64,000 bases of DNA, taken from positions 3,952,501-4,016,500 of the forward strand of contig NZ_JAOVZR010000001.1 in assembly GCF_026619415.1 (NCBI RefSeq). Direction: 5' to 3'. The notes under the pieces were generated by a model. The model was given only the letters and a program-made list of their open reading frames with translations, was not told the origin of the DNA and did no database searches. Positions 41,388 to 62,799 of this stretch are shown one piece after another. Numbering within the stretch: the stretch's first letter is position 1; each line of letters starts with the position of its first letter. Source of the DNA: Hoeflea algicola. Lineage in GTDB: Bacteria; Pseudomonadota; Alphaproteobacteria; Rhizobiales; Rhizobiaceae. Made by a program: the position numbers and the translations under genes.

Positions 41388-41720
41388 TCAGTCCTTAAGC
41401 GGTTTGAGATTGTCGAAAACCGGCGCGCGCTTTTCGCCGCGGGCGATATAGGCTTCCTTGATGTCATCGGGGCGCAGCATGGCCGCGTTCCATACCGCCA
41501 CATAGTCGAGCGCATCGGCGGTTGAGTGGTCGCGAGCATAGTTGGCCATGGTCTTGCACCCGGCAATGGCCAGCGGCGAGTGCTCGGCAATCTTTCGAGC
41601 GATTGCCATGACCCCGTCGAGCAGCGCTGCGGGGCTGTCAAACACCTCGTTGACCAGGCCGATTTCCCTGGCCTTGTCGGCGGGAAGCCGCTCGGCGGTA
41701 TACACCATCCGCCGTGCCCA
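41388..41720 (-). pseudogene. C-terminal remnant of an enoyl-CoA hydratase/crotonase gene
   Basis: About 110 residues (WARRMVYTAERLPADKAREIGLVNEVFDSPAALLDGV, then IAEHSPLAIAGCKTMANYARDHSTADALDY, ending FDNLKPLKD) match the C-terminal part of crotonase-family hydratases, including the region after the catalytic loop. The N-terminal two thirds, with the acyl-CoA and oxyanion sites, are missing. The frame continues upstream into a transposase remnant at about 41720, giving a chimeric open frame to 41870. The native promoter and catalytic half are gone, so it is non-functional. Confidence 0.85.
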
Positions 41721-42040
41721 CCCCGCCGCCGATACATGGGTGCGAACCACCGTGGAGTCGAACATCAGGATCAAATGTGCCGTGAGCTCAGATTCGCTAG
41801 ATGATCGAAGAACTCGGCGAACACGCCTGCCTTGCTCAGCCGGTCGAACCGGTTCCAGATGCTGTTCCATTTGCCGAAGCGTTCTGGCAGCGCACGCCGT
41901 GTGACATTGTCAACCGAGAAATAATGCAGTGCTTCGAGGAACAACCGGTCATCGCGGGCTTTGGCCCCGCGTCGGGGAAGCGACGCCCGAAACACGGCCA
42001 ACGCGTTGGCCCAATCCGCATCCGTCATCTTCGTTGACAT
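41721..42040 (-). mobile_element. IS5-family transposase remnant, truncated and frameshifted
   Basis: The frame from 42040 (MSTKMTDADWANALAVFRASLP, then DRLFLEALHYFSVDNVTRRALPERFGKWNSIWNRFDRLSKAGVFAEFFDHLA) is the N-terminal orfA of an IS5-family transposase. It shifts frame near 41795 into LILMFDSTVVRTHVSAAG, the start of the DDE half with its first Asp, and is then cut at about 41720 where crotonase sequence begins. The rest of the DDE domain and one end of the element are lost. It marks the left edge of the acquired region. Confidence 0.8.
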
Positions 42041-42322: not shown

Positions 42323-42384
42323 TTGACATTTTTCGCTTATTCAATGAATTTCATATTACGAAATATTAGTTCATATTAAGAAAT
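42323..42384 (+). promoter_or_regulatory. Promoter and tandem operator of the hydantoinase operon
   Basis: TTGACA at 42323-42328 looks like a -35 box. Downstream are two near-identical 15-mers, TTCATATTACGAAAT (42350-42364) and TTCATATTAAGAAAT (42370-42384), spaced exactly 20 bp. The first extends to the inverted repeat ATTTC-N7-GAAAT. The arrangement resembles IclR-type operators. TTGGAG then leads to the ATG at 42401. No regulator gene is found in the island within this window. Confidence 0.55.
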
Positions 42385-42400: not shown

Positions 42401-44436
42401 ATGGGGTTGGTGGTTGGAGTAGATACTGGCGGAACTTTCACAGATCTTCTGCTAGTGGATGGCATAGGCGGCGGCTGCAAGATCGCGAAGATTCCAACCA
42501 CCCCAGGCGACCAATCAAAGGGATTTTTGGCCGGACTGGCGCTACTTGGAGCAAATCCGGACGCCATAGAGCTTCTTGTTCATGCCACCACCGTCGGAAC
42601 CAATGCCATGCTGGAGCGAACGGGCGCCATATGCGGAATGCTGACGACTCGCGGTTTCAGAGATGTTTTGGAGTTGGGACGACGAACACGACCAAACGCT
42701 TACGGATTATCCGGCAACTTCGATGCCCTTATCGAGAGGCAAAACCGACTGGAAATCCCCGAGCGGATTGACGTTGATGGAAACATTGTCACGCCATTGG
42801 ACGAACAGGCCGTGAGAGAAGCGGTGTATACTCTCCAGGCTGCGGGAGCAGATTCACTTGTCATCCACTTCATCAACTCATATGTGAACCCTGAGCATGA
42901 ACAACGCGCCACTGAGATTGCGTTGGAGATTTGGCCGAATTCATTCGTAATTTCCGGATCGGAAATACTTCGCGAAGTTCGTGAGTTCGAACGCGGAACT
43001 GCCGCAGCCATCAATGGATATATCAGCCCTATCGTCTCCCGTTATCTGGGCCGCGTAGAAGATGGGCTGCGCGAAGGTGGTTTCCAGGGTGGCTTTCTTG
43101 TCATGCAGGGCAATGGAGGAATGGCATCAGCAGCTCAGTCGGGACGGTTGGCAATCAACACAGTCATGTCAGGGCCTGCTGCTGGCGCGATAGCAGCGGG
43201 TCTCATCGGTGAGAAGGCTGGCTTTCCCAATTTAATAAGTTGTGACATGGGGGGACCAGCTTCGACGTCACTCTGATCCTCGATGGAGCGCCATCGGTAA
43301 GTAGCCAGCGTGACTTGGCCTACGGCGTACCGATCCGCGTTCCTATGGTGGATGTACATACAATCAGTGCGGGAGGCGGCAGCATTGCACGCGTCGATCA
43401 AGCTGGCATGCTGCGCGTTGGCCCCGATAGTTCTGGCTCCTCTCCTGGGCCGATCTGCTTCGGTAGAGGCGGGCAATATCCAACTATCACCGACGCCAAC
43501 ATAGTGCTCGGGCGCTTAGATTCATCCTCCATCAATGGTGCCGACACTCGGCCCCCGGTAGAACAAGTCGCAGCGGTGCTCGGTCAATGTATAGGGACTC
43601 CACTCGGTCTGAGTAACGTCGAAGCCGCCGCCGCAGTTGTTCAGGTGGCAACAAATGACATGGCGGGTGCAATAAACTTGGTATCAGTCGCACGTGGTCA
43701 CGATCCTCGCGATTTCGCACTCTTCGCCTTCGGGGGAGCAGGCCCCCTGCATGCAGTCGCGTTGGCACGAGAATTAGGTATTCCAAAGGTTATTATCCCT
43801 CCTTTCCCAGGTGTCACCTCCGCAATCGGCAGTATTCTTGCGGATGTCCGCCATGACTTGGTGCAGACGATCAACCGTCCCGTCTCGGAGGTGGATGAGG
43901 AAAAGATGACCTCTATTCTACGCCAACAAGGCGTGGAAGGGCGTCGGTTTGTGTTAAATCAAAACCTTCTGTTAAAGGAAGTCGTCGTCGAACACTCGGC
44001 GGATTTCCTCTACGATGGCCAGTCCCACGTCTTGCAAATTTCGCTGACCGGCGAACGGTTCAGTTGCTCCGAGGCAATCGCTGCGTTCAAGAAGAGTTAC
44101 ACTCAGCGCTTTTCCATCGATTTGTCGGACATGAGATTAATCCTCGTTAATCTGCGAACGACTGTCATCGGCAAGCGCGACAGGGTCGACGTATCGATCA
44201 TTGCCCCGAAATCAGATCAGCAGAAGGAACGTTGCGTTTCAACACATATCACGAAAAGTTATTTCGAAGGATCTTGGATTAAAACAAATGTTTATTATCG
44301 TGATGCTTTGATTTCTAACAATACATACATCGGACCTGCGATTATCAAGCAAGTAGATACTACGATATATATCGATTCAAAATCCAATTTTAATATAGAT
44401 GAATTTGGTAATATTATTATTACGGTGAAATTATGA
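42401..44436 (+). pseudogene. Hydantoinase/oxoprolinase A subunit, frameshifted (hyuA-type)
   Basis: Two frames (42401-43276 and about 43255-44436) together give a hydantoinase A subunit of about 678 residues. The N-terminal ATP-binding motif is VVGVDTGGTFTDLLLVDG. DVLELGRRTRPNAYGL, GIGA-type LLVHATTVGTNAMLERTGA and VMQGNGGMAS follow, then after the shift SFDVTLILDG, VHTISAGGGSIARVDQAG and FAFGGAGPLHAVALARELG. The break lies in GACATGGGGGGACC: the run at 43249-43254 has six Gs and a seventh restores MGGTSFDV. The enzyme class opens ring amides such as 5-oxoproline or N-methylhydantoin with ATP. The 3' end is strikingly AT-rich. It may be a sequencing error rather than a real mutation. Confidence 0.85.
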
Positions 44437-46118
44437 ATATTTCAACTGATAAAAACAAACGCTCAGTCGTGGATACGATTACTCTTTCTGTAATTCAGAA
44501 TAAACTTCGTCATATATGCTCCGAAATGGATATTTCCCATGAGAAAGCATCCTTCTCTCCGGTGATATCCGAAGCTTTCGACCGATCTAATGGAATTTAT
44601 GATATCAATACCGGAGATGTTATTGCTCAGGGCGAATGGGGACTCCCTATATTCATGGGCGTCATGCAAGAGACTGCGCGTGACACCATTGCCAAGTATC
44701 CTGCTTTGAACGAAGGCGATATCGTTGTCGTAAACGACCCCTATCGCGGCGGCACGCACCTCCAGGATGTGCGCATGGTGAAGGCAGTGTTTTATCAGGG
44801 CAAGCCTTGGTGCCTACTCGCGAATACGGGGCACTGGCCGGACATAGGGGGAATGGTTCCCGGAGGCTTTGCCTGCCAAGCCACAGAGATCGAACAGGAA
44901 GGACTACGAATTCCGCCGGTCAAACTGTGCCGTCAGGGGGTAATGGACGAAGACATCCTCGACATGATTTTGACTAATATTCGTGTGTCTCAAGAGCGCT
45001 TCGGAGATATTCGTGCTCAAATCGGAGCATTGCAGGTCGGCGAAAATCGAATCGTCGAATTACTGGACAGATATGGTGTCGACGTCGTTTCATCTGCAAT
45101 TTCTGAACTACATAACCGTTCAGAGCAGCAAGTACGCACGCTTGTAAGCGAAATTCCGAACGGAAAATACACATCCCAATCGTTCATCGACAGTGATGGA
45201 GTCGATGTTGGGCGATTGACAATTAGTCTCACTCTGACAGTCAAAAATGGCGAATTGACTTTCGATTTTACCGGAAGCAGCAAGCCTTGCAGAGGGCCGC
45301 TCAATTCCACTTGGGCGACGACCCAAGCATCCGTGTATGTCGCCATGAAGCATATCATGCCGGAAGTTCTGGTTAATGCTGGATGTTTCCGCCCGTTTAA
45401 TATTGTTCCACCGGAGGGTACGTTTCTCTACGCACGATATCCACGGCCGGTTTCCGGCTGCTCTTCGGAAACATCCCAACGCATAATGGAGGCTATTTTT
45501 CTGGCGCTTAGCCAAGCGATACCAGAACGCCTGTTCGCAGCCCCGTTCGGAACTAGTGGCAATTTTACGCTGGGCGGTTACGACCCTGAAAAGGAACGCC
45601 ACTATATTATGTATTTCTTCTCAGGTGGCGGCTACGGCGGCTGGTGGGCGGGAGATGGTCTAACTAATGGCACTTCCATCCAAGGGATTTCCAAAACCCA
45701 GCCGGTAGAGATCTTAGAGCAGCGTTATCCGCTCCTTGTGGAAGAGTATGCGCTGCGCGAAAACTCAGCAGGAGCGGGTAAATACCGTGGCGGCTTTGGT
45801 GTCAACTATCGGATGAGGTTGTTGCGTGGCCGAGCGGTAGCGTCGTTTCTTATGGATCATGGTGCAATAGGGCCCCCGGGTATCCTTGGGGGTGAAAGTG
45901 GTGCTTCCAACTGCATCGAGTTGGAAGTGGGAGGGCGACAAGTCAACATTCCTCATGTCTCAAAGGGGTCCGGCTTCGCATTGTCGCCGGGTGATGCTGT
46001 ACAAGTTCGTACGCCGGGCGGCGGTGGTTATGGAGACGCAGCAGACCGCGACCTAGAGAGCCTCGCCGTTGATCGCGCACGTGGATATTTTCGAACGGCC
46101 GAGAAGACTGATGACTAA
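44433..46118 (+). CDS. Hydantoinase/oxoprolinase B subunit (hyuB-type)
   Basis: A 561-residue hydantoinase B protein. Signatures are TLSVIQNKLRHICSEMDISHEKASFSPVISEAFDRSNGIYD, DIVVVNDPYRGGTHLQDVRMVKAVF, NTGHWPDIGGMVPGGF, the GGGYGGWWAGDGLTNGTS stretch, and GKYRGGFGVNYRMRL, with C-terminal SPGDAVQVRTPGGGGYGDA. It forms a heteromer with the A subunit. Its ATG overlaps the hyuA stop (ATGA). The first about 25 codons are very AT-rich compared with the rest. The gene itself is intact. Confidence 0.92.
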   Translation: MNISTDKNKRSVVDTITLSVIQNKLRHICSEMDISHEKASFSPVISEAFDRSNGIYDINTGDVIAQGEWGLPIFMGVMQETARDTIAKYPALNEGDIVVVNDPYRGGTHLQDVRMVKAVFYQGKPWCLLANTGHWPDIGGMVPGGFACQATEIEQEGLRIPPVKLCRQGVMDEDILDMILTNIRVSQERFGDIRAQIGALQVGENRIVELLDRYGVDVVSSAISELHNRSEQQVRTLVSEIPNGKYTSQSFIDSDGVDVGRLTISLTLTVKNGELTFDFTGSSKPCRGPLNSTWATTQASVYVAMKHIMPEVLVNAGCFRPFNIVPPEGTFLYARYPRPVSGCSSETSQRIMEAIFLALSQAIPERLFAAPFGTSGNFTLGGYDPEKERHYIMYFFSGGGYGGWWAGDGLTNGTSIQGISKTQPVEILEQRYPLLVEEYALRENSAGAGKYRGGFGVNYRMRLLRGRAVASFLMDHGAIGPPGILGGESGASNCIELEVGGRQVNIPHVSKGSGFALSPGDAVQVRTPGGGGYGDAADRDLESLAVDRARGYFRTAEKTDD

Positions 46119-46490
46119 GTCGCTTACAGGAAAAGTCGCCTTAGTCACAGGCGCCGGACGCGGCATTGGCCGGGCCATCGCCGACCACTTGGCAAGTCAA
46201 GGGTGCTCGATCGCCATTCACGGAATGCGTGAGAACGGCCCTTCTGAATATGGTGAAGGAAGAACCTTGTCTGAAACCGCGCATCAAATATCAAATCGCC
46301 ACGACATTAGGACGATGCGCGTTCTAGCTGACCTGACCGATCCTTTACAGGCACGAGCATTGGTGGCCACGGTGGAGCAAGAACTGGGGCCGCTCGATAT
46401 TTTGGTCCACAACGCCGGCGGCGACATTTCCGCGGCAGGCGGCAAACCCGATCCAAACGACTGCGTTCATATCGTTGCTGACGATGTCAG

Positions 46491-47427
46491 TGTCGGTCCG
46501 CAAAGAAGTTGAATGATATGAATCGTTTGTGATTCGATGCCGTTGATTTGATTCGACGATGGGATGGAGGCTATGTGGACGAAAGCGAACCGTGGGAAAT
46601 ACAATCGGGATGGTCTGCGCTATCCCAGCGATCTGACGGATGCGGAATGGGCGCTGGTCGAGCCTTTGATACCTCCTGCCAAGCGGGGTGGCCGCAGGCG
46701 TGAGGTCAATGTGCGCGAGGTTCTTAACGGCCTGCTTTATGTTCTCAGCACCGGCTGCCAATGGCGGGCTGTTCCGAAGGACTTGCCGCCGAAGAGCACC
46801 CTGTTCAGCTATTTCGACCTTTGGAACTGGGACGGCACACTCGGCCGTATTCATCAGGAGCTTTATGTGAAATGCCGCGAGGCGATGGGACGCGAGGCTA
46901 GCCCGACGGCGGCGGTCATCGACAGCCAGAGCGTCAAAGGCGCGGAAAAAGGGGGCTTGTATCGACCCGAGCGGGTATGATGCGGGGAAGAAGGTCAAGG
47001 GTAAGAAGCGGCATATCCTTGTCGACACGGTAGGTCTGCTGCTGCATGCGCTGGTTCATCCAGCCGACATCCAGGACCGCGACGGCGGTCTGCTGGTCAT
47101 CAAGACGTTGTTCGGGCGCTATCCGTTTTTGAAGAAACTCTTTGCGGACGGTGGCTATCAGGGACCTGTCTTCGCCAAGGGTCAGAAGAAGGCCATGCCC
47201 GGGCTGGCGATCAAGATCATCAAGCGATCCGACATCGTCAAGGGTTTTGAGGTTCTGCCGAGACGCTGGGTGGTCGAACGGACTTTCGCGTGGCTTGGGC
47301 GATGCCGCAGGCTAGCCAAGGACTTCGAGAACCTGTCGCGCAACGCGCTCGCCTTTCTCAAACTCGCGTCTATCCGCCTCATGCTGCGAAGGCTCTGTTC
47401 AAAATGAACAACTTTCCGGACCGACTC
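46491..47427 (+). mobile_element. IS5-family (IS427-like) insertion sequence, 937 bp
   Basis: It is bounded by TCAG at 46487-46490 and 47428-47431. The ends are imperfect inverted repeats sharing GTCGGTCCG and then AAAG. It carries one transposase in two frames, on the plus strand. Because it lies in the second position of an operon-like array it is expected to be polar on downstream genes unless it supplies a promoter. Confidence 0.9.
46564..47407 (+). CDS. IS5-family transposase, two frames (orfA/orfB)
   Basis: OrfA (46564-46980) has RYPSDLTDAEWALVEPLIPP, the helix-turn-helix-like LNGLLYVLSTGCQWRAVPKDLP, and the first DDE Asp in AAVIDSQSVKGAEKGG. The frame then has to move by +1 at the AAAAAGGGGG stretch (about 46946-46955) to read ACIDPSGYDAGKKVKGKKRHILVDTVGLL, KKLFADGGYQG (second Asp) and RRWVVERTFAWLGRCRRLAKDFE (Glu), ending at 47407. 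IS5/IS427 elements often use programmed frameshifting here, so activity is possible; a true indel is the alternative. Confidence 0.82.
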
Positions 47428-47900
47428 TCAGGGCTGTGATTGAGCGCAATCTCCTGGCCACGATTTTTACCTGCCAAGCGGCTGCTGAAGGAATGATGCA
47501 AAGGCGAAACGGTCGAATTGTCACAATCAGCTCAACTGCTGCGTTTATTGGAAGGCCAAATTCCGCGATATATGCGACGGCCAAAGCTGCAGCAGTTCAT
47601 TATACAAGGTGCCTTGCCACCCAACTGCGTCCATTTTGCATAAACGTCAATTCGATCGCGCCTGGGGAAACTCGTACTGCTCGCTTTTTGGCCACCAGGG
47701 AGGTCGACGAGAACCGACTCATGGATGGGGGCACACTGGATCGGGTCGCCCTTATCGATGAAGTAAGTCGCGTGACGGAAGTATTCGTAGGCCCACTTGG
47801 CGATTTCGTCAGTGGCCAGGTCATTCGTGTGGATGGAGGTGCTCAATGTTGGCCTGCATAACAGACTGCAGGACTTCATTGGAGTAATGGGAGATTGTTG

Positions 47901-49182
47901 ATGTCACAAATTGAACTGGTGAATGCGTGGGCGAAAGCTACGCCGGGTCCATCATGGGGCTACATGAACCTACCCGCGCAACTCAGCCCTGTAATTGTAA
48001 GGGGCAATGGCGCCAGAGTCTTTGATGCATCGGGAAAATCCTATGTCGACCACCTCCTGAGCAGCGGACCGTTGATCGTAGGTCACGCTCATCCCGTAGT
48101 TGTGGAGGCTGTGACCGATCAATTATCGAGGGGATCGGCATACTTTGCGATAAATATGCCAGCTATTGAACTTGCTCAAGAGATCCTCGGCGCCTCTCTG
48201 TGTGGTGATACTCTGCACTACCAAACCACCGGTAGCGAAGCAACGGCGGCAGCACTGCGGATTGCACGGGCTGCAACAGGCCGATCGAAAGTAATAAAAT
48301 TCGAAGGTGGCTTTCATGGAAGCCACGATCTAGCACAATTGTCGAACGATGCAGTCGTCGATCGACCAGCGCCCATGATTAACCCTTCTAGCGCTGGTGG
48401 ATCTCCGGGTATGTGCCAAGATGCGTTAATCGCAGTTTATAATGACATCACATCGGTCGAAGCGCTCGTGGCGCAGAATCGAGACAATATTGCATGCGTC
48501 ATCATTGAGCCGATCCAACGTGCAATTATGCCTCAACCCGGATTCTTGGAGCAGCTACGCGCACTGACGCACAAGGAAGGGATACTCCTGATCTATGATG
48601 AAGTCGTAACCGGTTTTCGGGTGGCTTGGGGGGGGCTCAAGAGGTGTTCGGGGTCGTTCCTGATCTTGCCTGCTATGGAAAGGCGATTGGTGGGGGTTCC
48701 CTCTTTCGGCCGTTGTTGGCCCTCGTGAGTTGATGAGCCTCGCCGACCCTCGACGTCGTGATGCGGGGGAACCTTATTGCTTCCTTTCCGGGACGTTGAC
48801 TGGAAATCCAATTTCGGCGACTGCGGGGCTCGCTACGCTTAGGTTGCTGAAGGAACCTGGTACCTACGACAGGCTCCGCGCACGCACGCATCAACTTAGT
48901 GACGGCATCAGGCAAATGGGGCAGCGCAAGGGAATTCAACTTCTCGTCGGCGAATGTTGCTCGATGATCCAAGTATATTTCACCGAGCAAAACACTTTGT
49001 CCAATGCACGAGACGTCTTGAAGACCGACAAGAAAATGGCCGTGAAATTCGGGCGCAAGCTGATCGAAAACGGTGTCCTGACAACACCGGGTGGCAAGAT
49101 GTATCTCTCTACAGGACACAGCGAAGAGGATATTGAGGAAACTCTCTCTGTTATTGGAATGACTTTGGATGAAATCATATAA
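47901..49182 (+). pseudogene. Class III aminotransferase (glutamate-1-semialdehyde aminomutase-like), frameshifted twice
   Basis: The reconstructed protein has about 427 residues: RVFDASGKSYVDHLLSSGPLIVGHAHP, the PLP loop TTGSEATAAALRIARAATG, VIKFEGGFHGSHD, and the cofactor Asp in [17 protein letters not shown]. After repair it reads [23 protein letters not shown] (Schiff-base Lys) and SGTLTGNPISATAGLATLRLL. One missing G in the 8-G run at 48628-48635 and one in the 5-G run at 48692-48696 break it. It belongs to the omega-amino/GSA aminotransferase group and probably transaminates the ring-opened or oxidised substrate of the island (inference). GGGAG precedes the ATG at 47901. Confidence 0.85.
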
Positions 49183-49245
49183 TAACAAAAATTTGTTTCG
49201 GCAATTCTCAAAATTGTGGAATTAGAAATAGTAAAAGGCACGAAT

Positions 49246-50226
49246 ATGAGTGATACGGTCAATCCACCCCCTCCAAATAAATATAAATCTGCAGAAATCG
49301 TAGATTTAGCTATCCGACACAGCAACGTACTCGCATTGATAGCACTAATAGTGATAGCAGGAGTAGCGTCTCCATACTTCTTCGAATGGAGAAACATCAT
49401 GAACTTTCTGCGAGGATCAGCGCCTCTTGCTTTGGTGGCGATCGGAACGACGATCGTAATTCTGAGTCGCGGCATCGATCTTTCAGTTGGTTCATTGGTA
49501 GGCGTTTCTGCAACGGTCGTAGCGGCAATAATACCATTCAACCCAGTACTTGCAGTTACGCTCGCACTCGTTAGCGGACTCCTTCTTGGAGCTGTCAACG
49601 GATTTCTTATAACCCGATTCAACTTGCAACCTTTCATAGCCACTCTAGCGATGCTCATTTCAGGGCGTGGAATTGTATACATGTACACGGAAGGGTCCAA
49701 TATCGTCGTTCGCGATCCTCCGAAATGGTTCAGTTTTATCGGTTCTGGATACGTTGGCCCGTTCCCCACCCCGGTCGTTATCGCAGTCGCTGCCTTCATC
49801 TGCATGATCTTAGTCATGCGCGAAACGCAATTCGGCCGCCATGTGTACGGGATTGGGGCTAACGAAGAAGCTTGCAAGCTTTTTGGCATCAACGTCAAAG
49901 GAGTTACGCTCCGCATATACATGCTTAGTGGCCTGCTCTCCGCTTTGGCAGGGATTATACTTGTGAGTCGACTGACCGTCGCGGAACCCAACGCCGGACA
50001 CCTCATGGAGCTGGATGCGATATCCGCAACGTTGATTGGGGGAACGACATTCACGGGTGGCATCGGCAGTCTTGGAGGAACGGTAATTGGCGTTCTCGTA
50101 CTGGCAATTTTGGGAAATACGCTCAACCTGGTGGGGATATCACCATTCCTCCAGATGTTCCTTCAGGGTGTGATCATCGTGATCGCTGTCCTGATGAGTG
50201 AAATGCGGCAGAAAGTCTTGAAATAA
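49246..50226 (+). CDS. Ribose-type ABC transporter permease
   Basis: A 326-residue membrane protein of the RbsC/branched-chain permease family with about 8-10 helices. It shows VAIGTTIVILSRGIDLSVGSLVGVSATV, NGFLITRFNLQPFIATLAMLISGRG, the EAA-like loop FGRHVYGIGANEEACKLFGINVKG, and DAISATLIGGTTFTGGIGSLGGTVIG. It is the first gene of a permease, binding protein, ATPase set. The intergenic stretch before it (49183-49245) is AT-rich. Confidence 0.9.
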   Translation: MSDTVNPPPPNKYKSAEIVDLAIRHSNVLALIALIVIAGVASPYFFEWRNIMNFLRGSAPLALVAIGTTIVILSRGIDLSVGSLVGVSATVVAAIIPFNPVLAVTLALVSGLLLGAVNGFLITRFNLQPFIATLAMLISGRGIVYMYTEGSNIVVRDPPKWFSFIGSGYVGPFPTPVVIAVAAFICMILVMRETQFGRHVYGIGANEEACKLFGINVKGVTLRIYMLSGLLSALAGIILVSRLTVAEPNAGHLMELDAISATLIGGTTFTGGIGSLGGTVIGVLVLAILGNTLNLVGISPFLQMFLQGVIIVIAVLMSEMRQKVLK

Positions 50227-50248
50227 ACCAATAACTTGGAGGAAAGAA

Positions 50249-51241
50249 ATGACTGATAAATCAAAAACTGTATCCCGTCGCACCTTATTGGGAGGAATGG
50301 TTGGAGCTGGCCTGGCGATGCCAGTCATTCTAAACAGCGCCTTGGCGGAATCATCACTCAAAGGTATGCGGGTGGGCTATTCGACCAGTCTTGCCGCCAA
50401 TGAATGGATGGTGGCGCAGCGTCGCGGTGTAATAGAAACTTCGGCAAAGCACGGCTTCGAGCTATCGGTTGTGGATGCCAATGACCGACCTTCAAAACAA
50501 GTTCAGGACATAGAGGATCTGGTGGTGCGGCGTATGGATGCCATTATCATCAACACCTACTACGCTGATGCAATCACACCCGCTGTAAAACAGATTAACG
50601 AAGCGGGAATTCCTTTAGTAGTACTAAGTTCTTCGTTAGCAAGTAGTGTTGAATGGACGGCGCATCTTGCCACCGACAATTTGGGGACTTCCACCAGAGC
50701 TGGCCACATCTATGCAGAAAAGCTTAACGGCAAGGGCAAAGTGATCCTTATAGAGGGGAAAACTGGATCGTTTGTTAATGAGGAGCGAACTCGTGGATGG
50801 CGTTCCGTAATCGATAAAAACCCGGAAATTGAGATAGTCGGTCATGCCGTTGCAAACTATGAGCGGGGCCTTGCACTGCGAAAGATGGAAGAATTTCTGA
50901 ATAGTCAACGAGATATCGATGCCGTCTACTGTAATAATGACGAAATGGCGCTCGGCGTACTTCAGGCGGTTCGAGAAGCAGGTCGCGAGAGGGATATTTG
51001 GATTACCGGATATGACGGTGTGCAACCAGATATCATGCATGCGATCGCGAAAGGCGAAATATTCGGAACTTTCCACAACAGCCCGATGGGTGTCGAAGGT
51101 GTCGAGGTTGTCGCCAAAATTCTGCGTGATGAACCGGTCGACAAACGTATTGTTTTCCAGTCTCCCTTCATAAATGCGGAAAACCTCGCCGAGTTCTGGG
51201 ATCCGGAATCAGGCATGAAGATGAGGCCTTCGCAGATCTAG
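50249..51241 (+). CDS. Sugar-type ABC substrate-binding protein with Tat signal
   Basis: A 330-residue periplasmic binding protein of the ribose/galactose family. The Tat motif SRRTLLGG is followed by a hydrophobic stretch ending NSALAES, so it is exported folded. The mature part has MRVGYSTSLAANEWMVAQRRGVIE, DLVVRRMDAIIINTYYADAITPAVKQINEAGIPLVV and AVYCNNDEMALGVLQAVREAGR, and IWITGYDGVQPDIMHAIAKGE. Tat export is unusual for this family but not rare in alphaproteobacteria. AGGA precedes the start. Confidence 0.92.
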   Translation: MTDKSKTVSRRTLLGGMVGAGLAMPVILNSALAESSLKGMRVGYSTSLAANEWMVAQRRGVIETSAKHGFELSVVDANDRPSKQVQDIEDLVVRRMDAIIINTYYADAITPAVKQINEAGIPLVVLSSSLASSVEWTAHLATDNLGTSTRAGHIYAEKLNGKGKVILIEGKTGSFVNEERTRGWRSVIDKNPEIEIVGHAVANYERGLALRKMEEFLNSQRDIDAVYCNNDEMALGVLQAVREAGRERDIWITGYDGVQPDIMHAIAKGEIFGTFHNSPMGVEGVEVVAKILRDEPVDKRIVFQSPFINAENLAEFWDPESGMKMRPSQI

Positions 51242-51274
51242 CTGCGTAGTTTCTAAATAGCGAGGGAGGAAGGT

Positions 51275-52063
51275 ATGAAAGCGAATGATTGGGAGGCTCC
51301 GAAAGGAACGAAAACCTTTCTTCATGCTAAGTCGATCTCTAAGAGTTATGGCGGTCTCAAAGCCGTCAGCGAGGTTGACCTCAAAATCCACAGGGGCGAG
51401 GTTGTTGCCCTTGTGGGAGACAATGGCGCAGGGAAATCAACTCTTATAAAGATGCTGTCTGGCGTCATCTCTCCGGACAGGGGTGCCATAGAGATAGACG
51501 GTCAGCCGATAAGGTTCCTTGGTCCCAGCGATGCCCGAACGGCTGGAATAGAAACGCTGCATCAACACTTAGGACTTGTTGAGGTCTTCAATGTTCCGGA
51601 GAACATTTTCCTCGGACAGGAGCTAACGCGCCGTCGTCTTGGTATCTTCAAGGGACTTGACCACGCCAAAATGCGGAGGTTAACGGAGGAATTGCTCCGC
51701 CGAGTAGATCTGCGATTGCCGTCGCTCGACCAACCTGTGAAAGCAATGTCAGGCGGGCAAAGGCAAGCGGTCGCCATCACTCGCATGCTGTTGAATGAGG
51801 TGCACTTGCTCATCATGGACGAGCCGATGGCCGCGCTCGGTGTTGATGAAGGACGCAAAGTTCTCGATCTGATCGTAACCCTTCGGGAACGAGAATTGTC
51901 AACACTCATCATCAGTCACAATCTCGAACATGTCTTCGCAATTGCTGATCGTATTGCAGTGATGAAAAATGGAGAACTTATCTCGGTTGTAAATACTCGG
52001 GAAACAACCAGCGATGAGGTCGTAGGTATGATCGTCTCCGGCCGCAGTTACAAGGAAGCCTGA
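51275..52063 (+). CDS. Sugar-type ABC transporter ATPase, single domain
   Basis: A 262-residue ATPase with Walker A VALVGDNGAGKSTLIKML, Q-loop HQHLGLVEVF, signature MSGGQRQAVAITRML, Walker B LLIMDEPMAALGVDEG and switch His in LIISHNLEHVF. It has one ABC domain, as in FrcA, whereas RbsA-type partners carry two in tandem. It completes the importer with the permease and binding protein before it. Confidence 0.92.
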   Translation: MKANDWEAPKGTKTFLHAKSISKSYGGLKAVSEVDLKIHRGEVVALVGDNGAGKSTLIKMLSGVISPDRGAIEIDGQPIRFLGPSDARTAGIETLHQHLGLVEVFNVPENIFLGQELTRRRLGIFKGLDHAKMRRLTEELLRRVDLRLPSLDQPVKAMSGGQRQAVAITRMLLNEVHLLIMDEPMAALGVDEGRKVLDLIVTLRERELSTLIISHNLEHVFAIADRIAVMKNGELISVVNTRETTSDEVVGMIVSGRSYKEA

Positions 52064-52102
52064 TTCAGATTCGAAACGACGTTATTTGGTGAGGAGAGAA
52101 AG

Positions 52103-53830
52103 ATGGTAGAGCGCCGCAAATCCAAAGACCTTAGGAGTAGTCGCTGGTTCGCGGCAGAGGATCTGCGCGGTTTTGGCCACCGCTCTCGTGCGATGCAAAT
52201 GGGCTACGACACGGATGATTTTCTTGGCAAACCGGTCGTGGCAATTATCAATACGTGGAGCGACATAAACCCTTGCCACGCTCACTTCCGCAATCGCGTG
52301 GAACACGTGAAGCGCGGGGTACTCCAGGGCGGTGGTTTTCCACTCGAATTGCCCGCGATGTCGCTGTCGGAGAATTTTGTCAAGCCCACGACGATGCTCT
52401 ATCGCAACCTGCTGGCGATGGAAGTTGAGGAACTGCTTCGATGCCATCCGGTAGACGGGGTTGTGCTTATGGGAGGTTGCGACAAAACTACGCCAGCGAC
52501 CGTTATGGGTGCGGTCAGTATGAATCTTCCGATGATCTTCCTTCCGGCCGGTCCGATGATGCGAGGGCATGTCAACGGGAAGATTGTCGGATCGGGTTCC
52601 GATGTATGGAAATACTGGGCTGAAAAGGAGGCAGGTAACATTTCCGAGGGGGACTGGAGAGATATTGAGGCCGGTATTGCCAGATCGCACGGAACATGTA
52701 TGACGATGGGTACTGCTTCGACCATGACTCTCATCACAGAGGCTCTTGGCCTGAGCCTTCCCGGGGCCTCTTCGATTCCTGCGGGTGATTCGGCGCATCC
52801 ACGTATGTCGGCTGCCTGTGGGCGGCGTATCGTCGAAATGATCTGGAATGACGTCACCCCGAGCACAATTCTCACACGGAGGTCGTTCGAGAACGCGCTA
52901 GTGGTTCATAATGCGATCGCGGGTTCGACTAATGCCATCATTCATCTAATCGCCATGGCGGGTCGCGCTGGAGTATCCTTGACTATGGACGACTTCGACA
53001 TTTCCGCAAGAACCACTCCTGTGATTGCAAATCTGAGACCATCCGGCGCATGGCTAATGGAGGACTTTCATATTGCCGGTGGCACTCGCGCTCTTCTAAA
53101 TGTTCTTTCTCCTTTTCTTCATCTCGATGAAAAGACCATCTCGGGTAGGACGCTTGGAGAGAATTTGGTCGGAGCAAAGGTCTTTGACAACGACGTCATC
53201 AGGCCACTCGACAAACCGATCTCATCCATAGTGGGTACTGCGGTGCTGTTCGGCAACCTAGCACCAAACGGTTGCGTGATGAAGCCGGCGGCCGCCGAAG
53301 CGAGGCTTTTAAGACATACAGGCCCAGCGTTGGTTTTCGATAACTACGACGACATGGCTAAGGCAATCAACGATCCTGATTTAGACGTGACACCTGACCA
53401 TGTGCTGATCCTCCGGAATGCGGGCCCAGTTGGTGGGCCCGGCATGCCGGAATGGGGGATGCTGCCGATACCACGAAAGCTACTGCACAAGGGGGTTCGC
53501 GACATGTTACGGATATCTGACGCGCGAATGAGTGGTACGAGTTATGGGGCGTGCATACTTCATGTCTCTCCAGAGGCTCATGTCGGAGGGCCTTTGTCCG
53601 CAGTTCGAAACGGCGACCTAATCTCCGTCGATGTTGAAGCTCGTTCGCTGAACTTGCTCGTTCCTGATGTTGTGATCGCAGAGCGTATGTCTTCATCTTC
53701 GAGCCCTCCTCCCTCTTCATCTCGTGGTTTCGCGGGGATGTTCACCAGACATGTGACGCAGGCACACCTTGGTTGCGATTTTGATTTTTTGGAAGGAGTG
53801 GAAATCTTGCCGGAGCCAGAAATTCACTAA
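52103..53830 (+). CDS. IlvD/Edd-family dehydratase, sugar-acid type
   Basis: A 575-residue iron-sulfur dehydratase. Cysteine-containing stretches are TWSDINPCHAHFRNRVEHVKRG, LMGGCDKTTPATVMGAVSMNLP and ARSHGTCMTMGTASTMTLITEALG, with the later serine/lysine region in PAGDSAHPRMS. The family removes water from aldonic acids or dihydroxy acids, giving 2-keto-3-deoxy acids. With an HpcH/HpaI aldolase next door, a sugar-acid role (arabinonate, fuconate or rhamnonate-like) is more likely than branched-chain amino acid synthesis. The C-terminal segment RMSSSSSPPPSSSRGF replaces the usual aromatic/proline stretch and looks odd. Confidence 0.88.
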   Translation: MVERRKSKDLRSSRWFAAEDLRGFGHRSRAMQMGYDTDDFLGKPVVAIINTWSDINPCHAHFRNRVEHVKRGVLQGGGFPLELPAMSLSENFVKPTTMLYRNLLAMEVEELLRCHPVDGVVLMGGCDKTTPATVMGAVSMNLPMIFLPAGPMMRGHVNGKIVGSGSDVWKYWAEKEAGNISEGDWRDIEAGIARSHGTCMTMGTASTMTLITEALGLSLPGASSIPAGDSAHPRMSAACGRRIVEMIWNDVTPSTILTRRSFENALVVHNAIAGSTNAIIHLIAMAGRAGVSLTMDDFDISARTTPVIANLRPSGAWLMEDFHIAGGTRALLNVLSPFLHLDEKTISGRTLGENLVGAKVFDNDVIRPLDKPISSIVGTAVLFGNLAPNGCVMKPAAAEARLLRHTGPALVFDNYDDMAKAINDPDLDVTPDHVLILRNAGPVGGPGMPEWGMLPIPRKLLHKGVRDMLRISDARMSGTSYGACILHVSPEAHVGGPLSAVRNGDLISVDVEARSLNLLVPDVVIAERMSSSSSPPPSSSRGFAGMFTRHVTQAHLGCDFDFLEGVEILPEPEIH

Positions 53831-53917
53831 ACATCTTATTCCCAATGAGTACCGCAATTTTAGAACCGTAATGTGATCTAAAACTCTAGAGAGCATTGAA
53901 GGAAGCAGGCAGTAGAG

Positions 53918-54691
53918 ATGGAAATTAGACGCAATCGTTTCAAACGAGCACTGGAAAAGCGCATTCCGCAAATCGGAATGTGGACCAATCTTGGCTCTGA
54001 TTTTATTGCAGAGATAATCGCGGATGCTGAGTTCGATTGGATCCTATTGGATATGGAACATGCGCCAAATGAAATTGGAGATGTGCTGAGACAATTGCAG
54101 GCTGTTGACTGCCGTCATACAGCACCGATTGTGCGCCCCCCGTGGAATGATCCCGTCATTCTGAAGCGTCTGCTGGATCTGGGATTCCAAAGCTTCTTGA
54201 TACCTTTCGTGCAAAACCATCATGAAGCGGAACTGGCGGTGAAGGCGACCAGATACCCACCGTTGGGTAACCGAGGGGTGGCCGGATCTATGCGAGCGTC
54301 TCGGTTTGGCCGCGTGAAAAATTACACGCAGGAAGCTGCAGATGAGATCTGCGTTCTTGTCCAGGTGGAAACACGGGAAGCATTGGACAATTTGGAGGAC
54401 ATCGCGGCAACAGAAGGAGTGGACGGCGTCTTTATCGGTCCCTCAGACCTCGCGGCGTCGGTTGGTTATCTCGGACGACCTGACCATCCTGATATGAAGG
54501 CATTAATTTCAGAGGCGATCCGGCGAATCAATTCCGCCGGCAAAGTTGCTGGTATCCTTGCGCCGATCCCTTCTGACGCTCATCGTTGGCTCGATGAGGG
54601 AGCCATGTTCGTATCAGTTGGGGTTGACGCGAACATGGTGGTTCGCTCAACAGCGGAACTCCGGGCCCAGTTTCCTGCATCTTCAGCCTAA
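53918..54691 (+). CDS. HpcH/HpaI-family aldolase
   Basis: A 257-residue class II pyruvate aldolase. Motifs are QIGMWTNLGSDFIAEIIADAEFDWILLDMEHAPN, the glutamate/aspartate metal site in LVQVETREALDN and VFIGPSDLAASVGY, and FQSFLIPFVQNHHEAELAVKATRYPPLGNRGV. It cleaves 2-keto-3-deoxy acids to pyruvate plus an aldehyde. It follows the dehydratase by 87 bp and is the last intact gene of the island. The remaining 150 bp to the IS3 remnant carry no gene. Confidence 0.9.
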   Translation: MEIRRNRFKRALEKRIPQIGMWTNLGSDFIAEIIADAEFDWILLDMEHAPNEIGDVLRQLQAVDCRHTAPIVRPPWNDPVILKRLLDLGFQSFLIPFVQNHHEAELAVKATRYPPLGNRGVAGSMRASRFGRVKNYTQEAADEICVLVQVETREALDNLEDIAATEGVDGVFIGPSDLAASVGYLGRPDHPDMKALISEAIRRINSAGKVAGILAPIPSDAHRWLDEGAMFVSVGVDANMVVRSTAELRAQFPASSA

Positions 54692-55260: not shown

Positions 55261-55692
55261 TGAACCGCCCCGAGTTTGCCGGAGGCTCCAACTTCTGAGA
55301 GAGTGGAGCCATTATGAGCAAGACAACGAACAAGTTTTCACCTGAGGTCCGCAACCGTGCCATTCGCATGGTGCTGGACCATGAAGCCGAGCATCCATCA
55401 CGCTGGGCCGCCGTTTCATCTATCGCTGCCAAGATCGGCTGCTCACCAGCCACGCTGCACGACTGGGTCAAGAAGACCGAGGTCGACAGCGGCAAACGAG
55501 CAGGCGTGCCGAGCTGCGTATTCCGGGGCGATCCGGCCACTGATTCCGATAGCATCCGGCCACCCATTCCGATTTGATCCGGCCGGGGATTCCGGGGCAT
55601 CCGGCCACCCCCATTTCAACCCAGTTTAGGCTGCTGCGAGGCGATCTGTAACAGGGCTACTGTTCCGTTCCTTTGGATGGAGAGAGCCCTTT

Positions 55693-57222
55693 ATGAAGAG
55701 ATTGCCTATGCGGAAGATAAGGGAAGCCCTGCGGCTTCGGGCGGATGGATTTTCAGGCCGCCAGGTGGCGCAAAGCCTGTGCGTGGCCCGTGCGACGATT
55801 TCGGAATATTTTCGGCGCGCTGATCTGGAAGGTTTGAGCTGGCCTCTGTCTGCTGATCTGTCGGACGCCGACCTTGAGAACCGCCTGTTTCCCGTTTGCC
55901 CCGGCGATGTCCGTCGCGCGGTTCCTCAGCCTGTCTGGGCGCATGTGCATGCCGAGTTGCGGCGCAAGGGCGTGACGCTGTCGCTGCTGTGGGAGGAGTA
56001 TCGCGGGGTTCATCACGATGGATACGGCTATAGCCGATACTGTGAGCTCTACACCCGCTGGGAAGGCAAGCTGTCTCCGGTGATGCGTCAGCGTCATCCT
56101 GCAGGCGAGCGGCTGTTTGTCGATTACGCGGGCCCGACAGTTGATGTTGTCTGCCCCAAAACGGGAGAGGTGCGCACCGCACAAATCTTTGTCGCGACGC
56201 TGGGAGCGTCCAATTACACCTATGTCGAAGCCAGCTGGACACAGGGCCTGCCGGACTGGGTATCCAGCCATGTGCGTGCCTTTGAGTTCTTCGGTGGCGT
56301 GCCTGCGCAGCTGGTTCCAGACAATCTCAAGGCAGGCGTCACCAAGGCCTGTTTTTATGATCCTGAGATCAATCGCACCTATGGTGATATGGCGGCACAT
56401 TACGATACCGCCATCGTTCCGGCGCGGCCTGGAAAGCCGAAAGACAAGGCAAAGGTGGAAGGCGCTGTTTTGCTGGCCGAGCGCTGGATTTTGGCGCGGC
56501 TGCGCAACCAGCACTTTTTTGGCCTTGATGAGGTGAACGCTGCCATCCGGCCATTGCTGGATCAGCTCAACGGCAAAGTCAGTCGCCATCTTGGTGCAAG
56601 CCGCCGCGATCTGTTTGAACGCCTGGATCGGCCCGCTCTGAAGCCCTTGTCTATGGAGGCCTATGTTTATGCCGAATGGAAGCAGTGCCGCGCGGGCCTC
56701 GATTACCATGTCGATATTGGCCGCCATTATTACTCGGTGCCGCATCAGTTGCTGAAGCAAAAACTATGGGCAAGGATCACCGCACGCACCGTAGAGGTAT
56801 ACTTTAATGGGCAACGCGTTGCCTCTCACGCCAGAACCTCGGGCAATCGCCAGCACTCCACGATCCGCGATCACATGCCCGCCCATCATCGCTTCCGCGA
56901 GGATTGGACGCCACAGCGTATCCGCGGGCAAGCTGTGCGCATCGGCCCAAATGTTGAGGTCTTTGTCGATGTGATCATGCGCCAGCGCAAACATCCCGAA
57001 CAAGGATACAGAACGTGCCTCGGTGTTTTACGGCTGGCCAAGACCTTCGGGCGGGAGCGCCTGGATGCCGCCTGTTTGCGTGCGCTTGAGATCAACGCCC
57101 ACTCCTACACATCCCTGCATTCCATTCTGAAGAATGGTTTGGACCGTCAGCGCCGCGAACCCACCACGGACGGCCCTGCGATCACTCACCCCAATATCCG
57201 TGGTGCGGATTACTTCCATTGA
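55693..57222 (+). CDS. istA: IS21-family transposase IstA
   Basis: A 509-residue transposase. The N-terminal helix-turn-helix (IREALRLRADGFSGRQVAQSLCVARATISEYFRRADLEG) is followed by the DDE core: first Asp in LFVDYAGPTVDVV, second in AQLVPDNLKAGVTK, and Glu in KDKAKVEGAVLLAERWIL. A C-terminal beta domain contains HYYSVPHQLLKQKLWARIT. GGAGAGAG precedes the start. It cuts and joins the IS ends with help from IstB. Confidence 0.93.
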   Translation: MKRLPMRKIREALRLRADGFSGRQVAQSLCVARATISEYFRRADLEGLSWPLSADLSDADLENRLFPVCPGDVRRAVPQPVWAHVHAELRRKGVTLSLLWEEYRGVHHDGYGYSRYCELYTRWEGKLSPVMRQRHPAGERLFVDYAGPTVDVVCPKTGEVRTAQIFVATLGASNYTYVEASWTQGLPDWVSSHVRAFEFFGGVPAQLVPDNLKAGVTKACFYDPEINRTYGDMAAHYDTAIVPARPGKPKDKAKVEGAVLLAERWILARLRNQHFFGLDEVNAAIRPLLDQLNGKVSRHLGASRRDLFERLDRPALKPLSMEAYVYAEWKQCRAGLDYHVDIGRHYYSVPHQLLKQKLWARITARTVEVYFNGQRVASHARTSGNRQHSTIRDHMPAHHRFREDWTPQRIRGQAVRIGPNVEVFVDVIMRQRKHPEQGYRTCLGVLRLAKTFGRERLDAACLRALEINAHSYTSLHSILKNGLDRQRREPTTDGPAITHPNIRGADYFH

Positions 57223-57234
57223 AGAGGATAGAGA

Positions 57235-57993
57235 ATGCTTGATCACCCAACGCTGGATCAGCTCAAAACACTCAGGCTCGACGGCATGGCAGAAGCCTTT
57301 GCCGAGATGCAAAAACAGGACGGCACAGCCGGGCTTAGCCACGCTGAATGGCTTGGGCTGCTCATTGATCGAGAGACCGCCAGTCGTGAGACGAGGCGAT
57401 TTGAAAGCCGCATGCGTACAGCAAAACTGCGCCACGTCGGTGCCTCGCCGGAGGACGTGGATTACAAGTCGCGGCGCGGCCTCGACAAAGCCATGTTCCA
57501 GCAGATGCTGACCGGGCGCTGGATCAAGGACAAGCGCAACCTGATGATCACTGGCCCCTGCGGCGTTGGCAAAACATGGTTGGCCTGCGCTCTGGCGCAA
57601 GCCGCCTGCCGAGACGGTATCACTGTGCTGTACAAGCGCATGCCACGTCTCTTTGATGAATTGGAACTGGCCCATGGTGACGGACGCTTTCCGCGTCTGT
57701 TCAAGGCCCTTACCAAAACTCAACTGCTAATCCTGGACGACTGGGGACCGGATCGCCTCAATGCCAGTCAGCGTCGTGACCTTATGGAAATAGTCGAGGA
57801 CAGATACGAGGTTGGATCAACCTTGATCACAAGCCAATTGCCCATCGACACCTGGCATGACGTGATCGGGGAACCCACCTTCGCCGATGCCATTCTCGAT
57901 CGCCTCGTACACAACGCCTATCGCGTCGAACTCGACGGCCAGAGCATGAGGAAAACCAAACTCGGAACAGGTGACGAAAGCATCCAATCCTGA
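57235..57993 (+). CDS. istB: IS21-family ATPase helper IstB
   Basis: A 252-residue DnaC-like AAA+ ATPase. Walker A is TGPCGVGKTWLACALAQAA and Walker B is LLILDDWGPDRLN, followed by sensor region GSTLITSQLPIDTWHDVIGEPTFADAILDRL. It follows istA by 12 bp. It marks target DNA and stimulates the transposase. Confidence 0.93.
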   Translation: MLDHPTLDQLKTLRLDGMAEAFAEMQKQDGTAGLSHAEWLGLLIDRETASRETRRFESRMRTAKLRHVGASPEDVDYKSRRGLDKAMFQQMLTGRWIKDKRNLMITGPCGVGKTWLACALAQAACRDGITVLYKRMPRLFDELELAHGDGRFPRLFKALTKTQLLILDDWGPDRLNASQRRDLMEIVEDRYEVGSTLITSQLPIDTWHDVIGEPTFADAILDRLVHNAYRVELDGQSMRKTKLGTGDESIQS

Positions 57994-59296
57994 TAACCAA
58001 ATCATCAGGCCTCGCAGCCGCTATATAAGGGTGGCCGGATACCCCGGTTTAGGTGGCCGGATGTTATCGGAATGGCCGGCCGGATACTCCGGAATGCGCA
58101 CCGAGCGATGTGGCCGAGAAGATGAAGGCTCTTGAGCGGGAGAACCGCGAGCTTCGCCAGGCCAACGAGATTTTGCGCAAAGCCTCTGCATATTTCGCGA
58201 TGGCGGAGCTCGACCGCCCCTTCAAGCGATGATCTCGTTTATCGACGAACACCGAGGTGTGTTCGGGGTCGAGCCGATCTGCAGGCTGCTGCCGATTGCC
58301 CCTTCAACCTACTACGAGAATGTAGCCAAACGCCTGGATGTGGATTGCCTATCGATCCGCGCCCGCAGCGATATCAGCCTGAAGATCGAGATACGTCGTG
58401 TCTTCGAACAGAACTTCCGCGTCTATGGTGTTCGCAAAGTCTGGCGGCAATTGAAGCGTGAGGGCTTTGACGTGGCCCGCTGCAGTGTCGCCAGGCTTAT
58501 GAGGGCTATGAACTTGCAGGGTATCATTCGAGGAAAGCCGATCCGCACGACGTTCTCGGACAAGACTGCTCCGAGCCCGCTTGACCGGGTTAACCGCCAG
58601 TTCAAAGCCCCCGCACCAAACAGACTGTGGGTTTCGGACTTCACCTATGGTGCGCCTCGCCCCAATCGGGGAGGCATATGACTGGAATGCAAAAGAGAAA
58701 GGAGGATGCGAATAATTGCCTGCCCTCTGCTGTAAGGGGCATGAGCCCAAGCGGCGGTGACCTGCCGTCAACTGGCAGGGTGACGTAGCCCGCAGGTAAA
58801 GGGGATTGAGGCGAAGCCGTTACGTCGAGATGGTTCCCGAGGCTGAAGTATTGGAAGGTTGAGGAACACGAACCGGTTAACCCGCATCTGAGGGCTGGAA
58901 TGTCGCCTTCGCCTACACGGCTTAACAGGTGAAATGCTGATGATGGCGCGTGAGATGTACGCCAGCGTTATCCCAACACGGACGAATACGTAGGTTGTCC
59001 GTGGCAGCCATGGGGAGAATACAGCCAGACCATGGCATCGGCATCGACTTGCGGAAAGCAAGGGAAAAGACTGCGACCGGCAGCCTCACCAATACGCAGA
59101 CGTCCAGCATATGAACGAGGGAAGGCATGATGGAATGACAACGATGTTCTGCGTCGCAAGGGAGTTGGCCCTGATGTCCATCATGTTGGCGGAGTTCTCA
59201 TAGTAGTCCGCGGCAGGGAAAGCCTGTCACATGGCGAAGGGGAACAGTTCAAGCTGCTTGAAGTGCAAACTATCTGACCAAGCGAGGTGAAGACCT

Positions 59297-60826: not shown

Positions 60827-60831
60827 ATGGA

Positions 60832-60865
60832 GAGCCGTATGCGCTGAAAGGTGCAAGTACGGTTC
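60832..60865 (+). ncRNA. Group II intron domain V
   Basis: The 34-nt hairpin opens GAGCCGTATGCGCTGAAAG and closes GTACGGTTC. It has the expected length, GNRA-like GAAA loop and two-nucleotide bulge region. It is the catalytic core of the ribozyme and lies 5 bp after the maturase stop. Confidence 0.93.
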
Positions 60866-60921
60866 GGGGAGGAGAAGCGCATCTGCGCTTCTTACTCCAC
60901 TCGCGACGTGGCAGGGCTTTG

Positions 60922-62296: not shown

Positions 62297-62799
62297 GGGC
62301 TTTGTCTACGTCGCTTTCGTCATCGATGTATTTGCGCGCCGGATTGTCGGATGGCGGGCAAGCCGCACAGCCAATGCTTGGTTTGTTCTGGATGCTTTGG
62401 AGCAGGCCATTCATCAACGCAGACCGGCACAGGACAAACTCGTTCACCATTCGGACCGTGGGTCGCAATATCTATCGATCAAATACACGGAACGGCTGGC
62501 CGAAGCCAAAATCGCACCTTCTGTCGGCAGCGTCGGGGATTCCTATGACAATGCATTGGCCGAGACAATCAACGGCCTGTTCAAAGCGGAAGTCATTCAT
62601 CGTCGTGGCCCAGGGAGGAGCTTTGAAGCCGTCGAATACGCCACCCTCGAATGGGTCGACTGGTTCAACAATCGCCGCCTACTGGAACCGATCGGAAACA
62701 TCCCACCAGCAGAAGCCGAAGCAAACTTCTACGCCGCTCTGGAAAGAGAAGACATGGCAGCATAACTTAAACCAAATAGCCTCCAGCACACCCGGGGCG

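Follow-up and report, generated by a model that had tools for sequence, protein, structure and literature searches.

A foreign, probably decaying gene array in Hoeflea algicola that combines ring-amide hydrolase, aminotransferase and sugar-acid catabolic enzymes

Why should a single row of genes encode enzymes for opening ring amides, for transamination and for the breakdown of sugar acids? This question is raised by nine genes on the + strand at positions 42401-54691 of a 64,000-nucleotide stretch, hereafter the window, of the chromosome of the Rhizobiaceae member Hoeflea algicola (NCBI RefSeq assembly GCF_026619415.1, contig NZ_JAOVZR010000001.1, positions 3,952,501 to 4,016,500 of the forward strand). 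Since these genes lie on one strand, are closely spaced or overlapping and share a uniform foreign codon usage, and since the left end is marked by a truncated host gene and the remnant of an insertion sequence (IS) and only six of the nine genes are open, the array is very probably one horizontally acquired catabolic operon that is now decaying. That the operon moreover once served for a sugar-like cyclic amide is possible, and we propose this fuller explanation only tentatively, as a rival of about the same standing exists.

Pfam and NCBIfam matches, which are strong throughout the array, assign the genes to HyuA/HyuB, a short-chain dehydrogenase/reductase (SDR), a class III aminotransferase of the glutamate-1-semialdehyde (GSA) type, a CUT2 importer in the order permease, binding protein, ATPase, an IlvD/Edd dehydratase and an HpcH/HpaI aldolase:

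42401..44436, + strand: hyuA, frameshifted at a run of six G at 43249, inside the DMGGT motif; Pfam Hydant_A_N and Hydantoinase_A match the first piece, Hydantoinase_A and Hydant_A_C the second
44433..46118, + strand: hyuB, open, 561 aa; Hydantoinase_B 546 bits
46111..47861, + strand: SDR gene interrupted by an IS, with pieces at 46111-46490 and 47428-47861; adh_short positions 1-89 match one and adh_short_C2 positions 101-235 the other
~46491..47427, + strand: IS5-family element inside the SDR gene; DUF4096 and DDE_Tnp_1
47901..49182, + strand: class III aminotransferase, GSA-type; Aminotran_3; frame changes at a run of eight G at 48628 and near 48694
49216..50226, + strand: CUT2 (ribose-type) permease; BPD_transp_2 141 bits
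50249..51241, + strand: periplasmic sugar-type binding protein; Peripla_BP_4 166 bits
51275..52063, + strand: importer ATPase with a single ATP-binding cassette (ABC) domain, 262 aa; ABC_tran 108 bits
52103..53830, + strand: predicted sugar-acid dehydratase of the L-arabinonate dehydratase type; NF009559 983 bits, above the cutoff of 882; ILVD_EDD N and C domains
53918..54691, + strand: HpcH/HpaI-type aldolase; HpcH_HpaI 170 bits

The hyuA gene overlaps hyuB and hyuB overlaps the SDR gene, while the remaining gaps, the IS aside, measure 22 to 87 bp. Given this tight spacing, a shared atypical composition and the catalytic residues kept in HyuB, IlvD and HpaI, the array is more than a chance neighbourhood. 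A promoter scan gave 10 hits with 10.8 expected and a terminator scan 8 with 13.4 expected. Upstream of hyuA, at 42350..42382, the sequence TTCATATTANGAA occurs twice at a distance of 20 bp, with no further match in the window; this pair is a possible operator. The first-pass annotation, made from the letters of the window, had named these families, their order, strand and coordinates, and the domain matches bear it out on all of them. Its title, an unusual catabolic island, holds in that the gene set is real and beyond chance, and needs correction in that the island is not intact. It spoke of 'an intact homologue' and named no broken genes; those found here are hyuA, the SDR gene and the aminotransferase gene.

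The composition of the array sets it apart from its host. In 1.5-kb bins from 42.0 to 55.5 kb, the GC content is 49-56% versus 58-65% leftward, and GC content at third codon positions is 0.48-0.57 in eleven array pieces versus 0.73-0.78 in three host genes. When the array was divided into a 5' half (hyuA, hyuB and aminotransferase pieces) and a 3' half (importer, dehydratase and aldolase), the synonymous-codon distance between the halves was 0.090, and each half lay at a distance of ~0.26 from the host genes. The 126 possible five/five splits of the ten pieces averaged 0.092, and 76 of them reached the observed value. The distance between the halves is thus no greater than that of random splits, which points to a common compositional background.

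Three features mark the borders of the array:

41388..41794, - strand: C-terminal remnant of an enoyl-CoA hydratase gene (Pfam ECH_1), on the host side of the left junction
41771..42040, - strand: IS4/5-type transposase remnant at the left junction (Pfam DUF4096, 55.8 bits)
55693..57993, + strand: istA and istB of an IS21 element at the right border (Mu-transpos_C_2 and IstB_IS21)

At the place of the left junction, a congener (L213) has an open enoyl-CoA hydratase gene of 323 aa; with this frame as the query, only the C-terminal 112 residues are found at high identity in the present genome. Among ten congeners, the match to the remnant adjoins galE in seven, lies ~10 kb further on in one and was not seen in two. 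The array interrupts a host gene that runs on in congeners. Compared with plasmids, the array DNA gave, besides IS, only short stretches of the dehydratase gene at 76% identity. To the right, a nest of mobile elements occupies window positions 55500-64000, comprising IS21, an IS3-type element with an ALIL pseudoknot (58187-58303), a group II intron (59297-60900), IS66 and IS110.

With IS elements on both sides and one in the SDR gene, and with relatives of the two halves occurring apart, it might be thought that IS elements had brought two clusters together by chance in this host. The first-pass annotation had named just this as the outcome that would speak against its proposal, should homologous genes occur in separate, unrelated operons. 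Relatives of the individual parts are indeed found in separate operons, but the IS-driven assembly finds no support: the halves meet (49183-49245) without an intervening IS, and both have the same foreign codon usage. Since no IS lies between halves that share a codon usage unlike that of the host, joining by IS in this host is disfavoured, and we regard it as the least likely of all explanations and highly improbable.

Within the operon, the hyuB, permease, binding protein, ATPase, dehydratase and aldolase genes are open. The hyuA frame is open over 42401-43276, and the HyuA sequence moves to another frame from the G run at 43249. The first phosphate-site motif, DTGGTFTD, is present, and the frame change crosses the DMGGT motif, which forms the second phosphate site of its homologue CapA (PMC8453981), so that the two motifs do not stand in one open frame. 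The IS5-family element that splits the SDR gene has inverted ends with TCAG on either side, as read by eye; the genome holds three copies, this one included, and since they are 100% identical over 926 bp the insertion looks recent. In the aminotransferase gene, the frame shifts twice, at 48628 and again near 48694. In the present sequence, the steps of HyuAB, the aminotransferase and the SDR should not be expected to run, while the importer, the dehydratase and the aldolase could still work.

All three frame changes fall at G runs, which could mean sequencing error or slippage. A reading in which only the SDR gene is truly broken, by its IS, and the hyuA and aminotransferase frame changes are sequencing errors would also account for the fact that the only two runs of six or more G in the window are both frame-change sites, three runs of six C lying elsewhere. 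The host part of the window is in addition poor in G or C runs of at least six (1 in 41.3 kb, versus 30 in 191.6 kb of ten congener loci), while two other stretches of the same genome hold 4 in 39.8 kb. However, ten 20-kb samples per genome gave 14 such runs here versus 18, 18 and 20 in three congeners, which argues against a clear undercalling of homopolymers, and the break in the SDR gene is an IS, independent of homopolymers. Although the host part of the window hints at systematic undercalling, the larger samples do not clearly bear it out, and we consider the sequencing-error explanation rather improbable.

Both hydantoinase domains, A and B, exceed their Pfam cutoffs, HyuA doing so in two pieces. 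An alignment to 6yra chain B, counted by hand, shows that HyuB keeps the metal ligands Asp50, His109, Asp112 and His134; those of CapB are Asp41, His99, Asp101/102 and His124, and the acid/base catalyst proposed for CapB is Tyr136 (PMC8453981). At the place of this tyrosine HyuB has Phe146, a phenylalanine that is invariant in an alignment of the window protein and six relatives. An assignment as caprolactamase was rejected, as the two hyuA pieces score 201 and 252 bits with the CapA model and HyuB 316 with that of CapB, far under the cutoffs of 1000 (NF050156 and NF050157), a comparison in which the split hyuA cannot be scored whole; acetophenone carboxylase also fails its curated cutoffs. 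These results bear on the notion that HyuAB opened a simple lactam or hydantoin, that the resulting amino acid was processed by the aminotransferase and the SDR, and that the other genes were accessory. The first two steps would then be as in the CapAB cluster of Pseudomonas jessenii (PMC6061476), but the low scores, the phenylalanine in place of Tyr136 and a sugar-type importer and sugar-acid enzymes that would go unexplained make such a caprolactam- or hydantoin-type pathway very unlikely.

The dehydratase, whose score exceeds the L-arabinonate dehydratase cutoff, keeps Cys58, Cys126, Cys199, Ser477 and a histidine as its last residue. The three cysteines are taken to be those of the cluster, and Ser477 to be the active-site serine. 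A C-terminal histidine is reported to be conserved in sugar-acid dehydratases, and Cys200 and Ser480 likewise come from that report (PMC11316719). The enzyme is a predicted sugar-acid dehydratase of the IlvD/Edd superfamily. The aldolase keeps His48, Arg73, Glu151 and Asp177, which we take to be catalytic residues as in HpaI, and scores below the equivalog cutoffs of HpaI (TIGR02311, 324 of 369 bits) and GarL (TIGR03239, 312 of 407 bits). With the HemL model TIGR00713, the two aminotransferase pieces reach 206 and 84 bits, the cutoff of 527 being set for the whole protein. A plain ribose importer RbsABC was rejected both by score (binding protein 163 of 337, permease 256 of 398 and ATPase 185 of 745 bits) and by the size of the ATPase, which has 262 aa and a single domain instead of two. 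In the binding protein, residues counted by hand as Ser, Ser and Glu178 align with Asp89, Arg90 and Arg141 of the E. coli ribose-binding protein, which we take to be ligand residues, whereas Asn190 and Asp215 of that protein are kept; from its nearest relatives the binding protein departs at positions 51, 178, 229 and 277. At 42-47% identity, these differences are only a hint of another ligand, although changes such as Glu178 for arginine would fit one.

What the operon did before its decay can be drawn as a single route. The CUT2 importer would take in a sugar-like cyclic amide, whose ring amide HyuAB would open at the expense of ATP; the aminotransferase would convert the freed amine to a carbonyl, and the SDR would reduce this carbonyl to give an ordinary sugar acid. 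The IlvD/Edd enzyme would then dehydrate the sugar acid to a 2-keto-3-deoxy acid, which the HpaI-type aldolase would cleave to pyruvate and an aldehyde. This route employs each array gene once. From the enzyme families we infer, with due reserve, that a former import and breakdown of a sugar-like cyclic amide, most simply the lactam of an amino-deoxy sugar acid, is possible. The more exact proposal, a complete linear route for an iminosugar-type lactam (e.g., an amino-deoxy-aldonic acid lactam) taken up as a sugar mimic and degraded via a keto or aldehydo sugar acid, was not met in the literature searched and we hold it to be unlikely. An amino-sugar acid or its lactam was also the substrate put forward in the first-pass annotation; it is still the simplest one that would use all genes and is compatible with the findings, but neither functional support nor a second genome with the full set came to light.

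The distribution of the genes elsewhere also fits a different explanation, in which one transcription unit holds two distinct catabolic modules, the first (HyuAB, SDR and aminotransferase) for a lactam or hydantoin and the second (importer, dehydratase and aldolase) for a sugar acid or sugar. The modules would have been joined before the transfer and would have shared their expression, not a pathway. Relatives of the parts occur apart, with HyuAB beside class III aminotransferases, the dehydratase beside the aldolase, and the importer beside CoA-transferases in two annotated loci, and the same codon usage in both halves fits a joining in the donor. On the other hand, the genes of both modules follow closely upon one another in a single row, neither a regulator nor a clear promoter separates the modules, and one pathway that takes in every gene can be proposed. 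Two modules fit the distribution of the relatives at least as well as the linear pathway does, and we rate the two about equally; taken by itself, the two-module explanation is a serious contender that we would place somewhat short of probable.

Several results weigh against a dedicated pathway for a sugar-like cyclic amide. The first-pass annotation had proposed looking for the same gene set in other genomes, and no second full copy was found. Relatives of HyuB were taken as the best 80 of at least 541 from an alignment scan, the closest listed being ~59-65% identical. In the DNA fetched around these 80 loci, matches to the dehydratase, aldolase, binding protein and permease at E 1e-3 were found in none, a test that is full for about half of the loci, as downstream DNA of 7.7 kb or more is available for only 45 of them. 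The full set was likewise absent from a set of 20 HyuB loci, where dehydratase, aldolase and permease had no match at E 1e-8; among these, one had a 25% match to the binding protein on the opposite strand and two had an aminotransferase match. HyuAB, permease, binding protein, dehydratase and aldolase were all missing from 20 aminotransferase loci (one being a paralogue in the same genome), as were HyuAB, dehydratase and aldolase from five loci with relatives of the binding protein. Each part of the array has relatives with other partners. Moreover, the array holds no regulator that could be found, such a pathway was not found described in the open-licence PubMed Central (PMC) literature searched, and the identity of the substrate is something we infer.

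A scan of genome contigs with the HyuB protein matched 19 stretches, none of which encodes a relative, so that a near-identical HyuB is unlikely in those contigs, where the record of this genome and those closest to it may be missing. In 199 genomes of the order and 297 of the family, nothing above 49% identity to the aminotransferase was found outside the window. At E 1e-75, and with the own genome included, the binding protein was found in 3 of 297 genomes of the family and 1 of 289 of the class, and the aldolase in 26 of 247 family genomes. Twenty other aldolase loci had a 65-66% dehydratase in the same stretch in two cases and a 29% match in one, with none in the remaining 17. CoA-transferases adjoin the importer in both annotated loci of importer relatives (L057 and L058). 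They also lie near a dehydratase-aldolase pair on a Skermanella mucosa plasmid (L224); a thiamine pyrophosphate (TPP) enzyme is present in L057 and L224, and L057 carries dihydroxyacetone kinase genes.

The pairing of HyuAB with an aminotransferase recurs. In 11 of the 80 loci, HyuB is followed on its strand by a class III aminotransferase no more than 5 kb downstream, where 63 of the 80 have at least 3 kb of DNA, and a stricter count gave 10 of 72; part of the aminotransferase queries were derived from the same HyuB loci that were counted. Within 7.5 kb upstream there was one, on the other strand. Most of these best 80 HyuB relatives have no such aminotransferase neighbour. In a tree of 44 rows, HyuB-linked aminotransferases occupy at least three branches, and the window protein is nearest by path to the HyuB-linked one of a Rokubacteria metagenome-assembled genome (MAG), on a long branch and without strong support. 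Aminotransferases from several branches following HyuAB suggest that ring-amide hydrolysis and transamination were joined more than once, which is of use in annotating a large family of enzymes whose assignments are poor. In five loci (L136, L139, L140, L142 and L174), from Alphaproteobacteria and Alcaligenaceae, HyuB precedes a tandem of two different class III aminotransferases.

For this genome, the locus is chiefly a foreign operon in decay. If the linear reading were true, it would reveal how bacteria can feed on sugar lactams, which are related to iminosugar inhibitors of glycosidases, and would offer a gene set that can be tested.

Among the loci compared, those of Rhizobium sp. Q54 (L060) and the Rokubacteria MAG (L146) resemble the array in that HyuAB, at 60-62% identity, precedes a class III aminotransferase on the same strand; they differ in that the fetched DNA has no match to the dehydratase, aldolase, binding protein or permease, and Q54 has TRAP transporters. 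On plasmid pSM-1 of Skermanella mucosa (L224), the dehydratase (63%) adjoins the aldolase (54%) on one strand, as in the array, but with an RraA-like protein, a TPP enzyme, an alcohol dehydrogenase and a CoA-transferase, and with no match to HyuAB or a class III aminotransferase.

Lactam hydrolysis followed by transamination is proven for caprolactam, and the cluster of P. jessenii, with CapAB, an omega-aminotransferase and a 6-oxohexanoate dehydrogenase, shares with the array an ATP-dependent ring-amide hydrolase of the same superfamily and a pyridoxal phosphate (PLP) aminotransferase (PMC6061476). In contrast, the aminotransferase here is of the GSA type, a sugar-type importer, a dehydratase and an aldolase are added, and no aldehyde dehydrogenase is among the array genes. 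For pentonates, dehydration followed by aldol cleavage is described, with ABC importers nearby; the non-phosphorylative Route I has, like the array, an IlvD/Edd dehydratase, a pyruvate aldolase and an ABC importer in one cluster (PMC6336799). Unlike Route I, the array has no recognised sugar 1-dehydrogenase or lactonase, and gains HyuAB and the aminotransferase. What is new, compared with these systems, is that known enzymes are brought together in this way, in a foreign operon undergoing decay.

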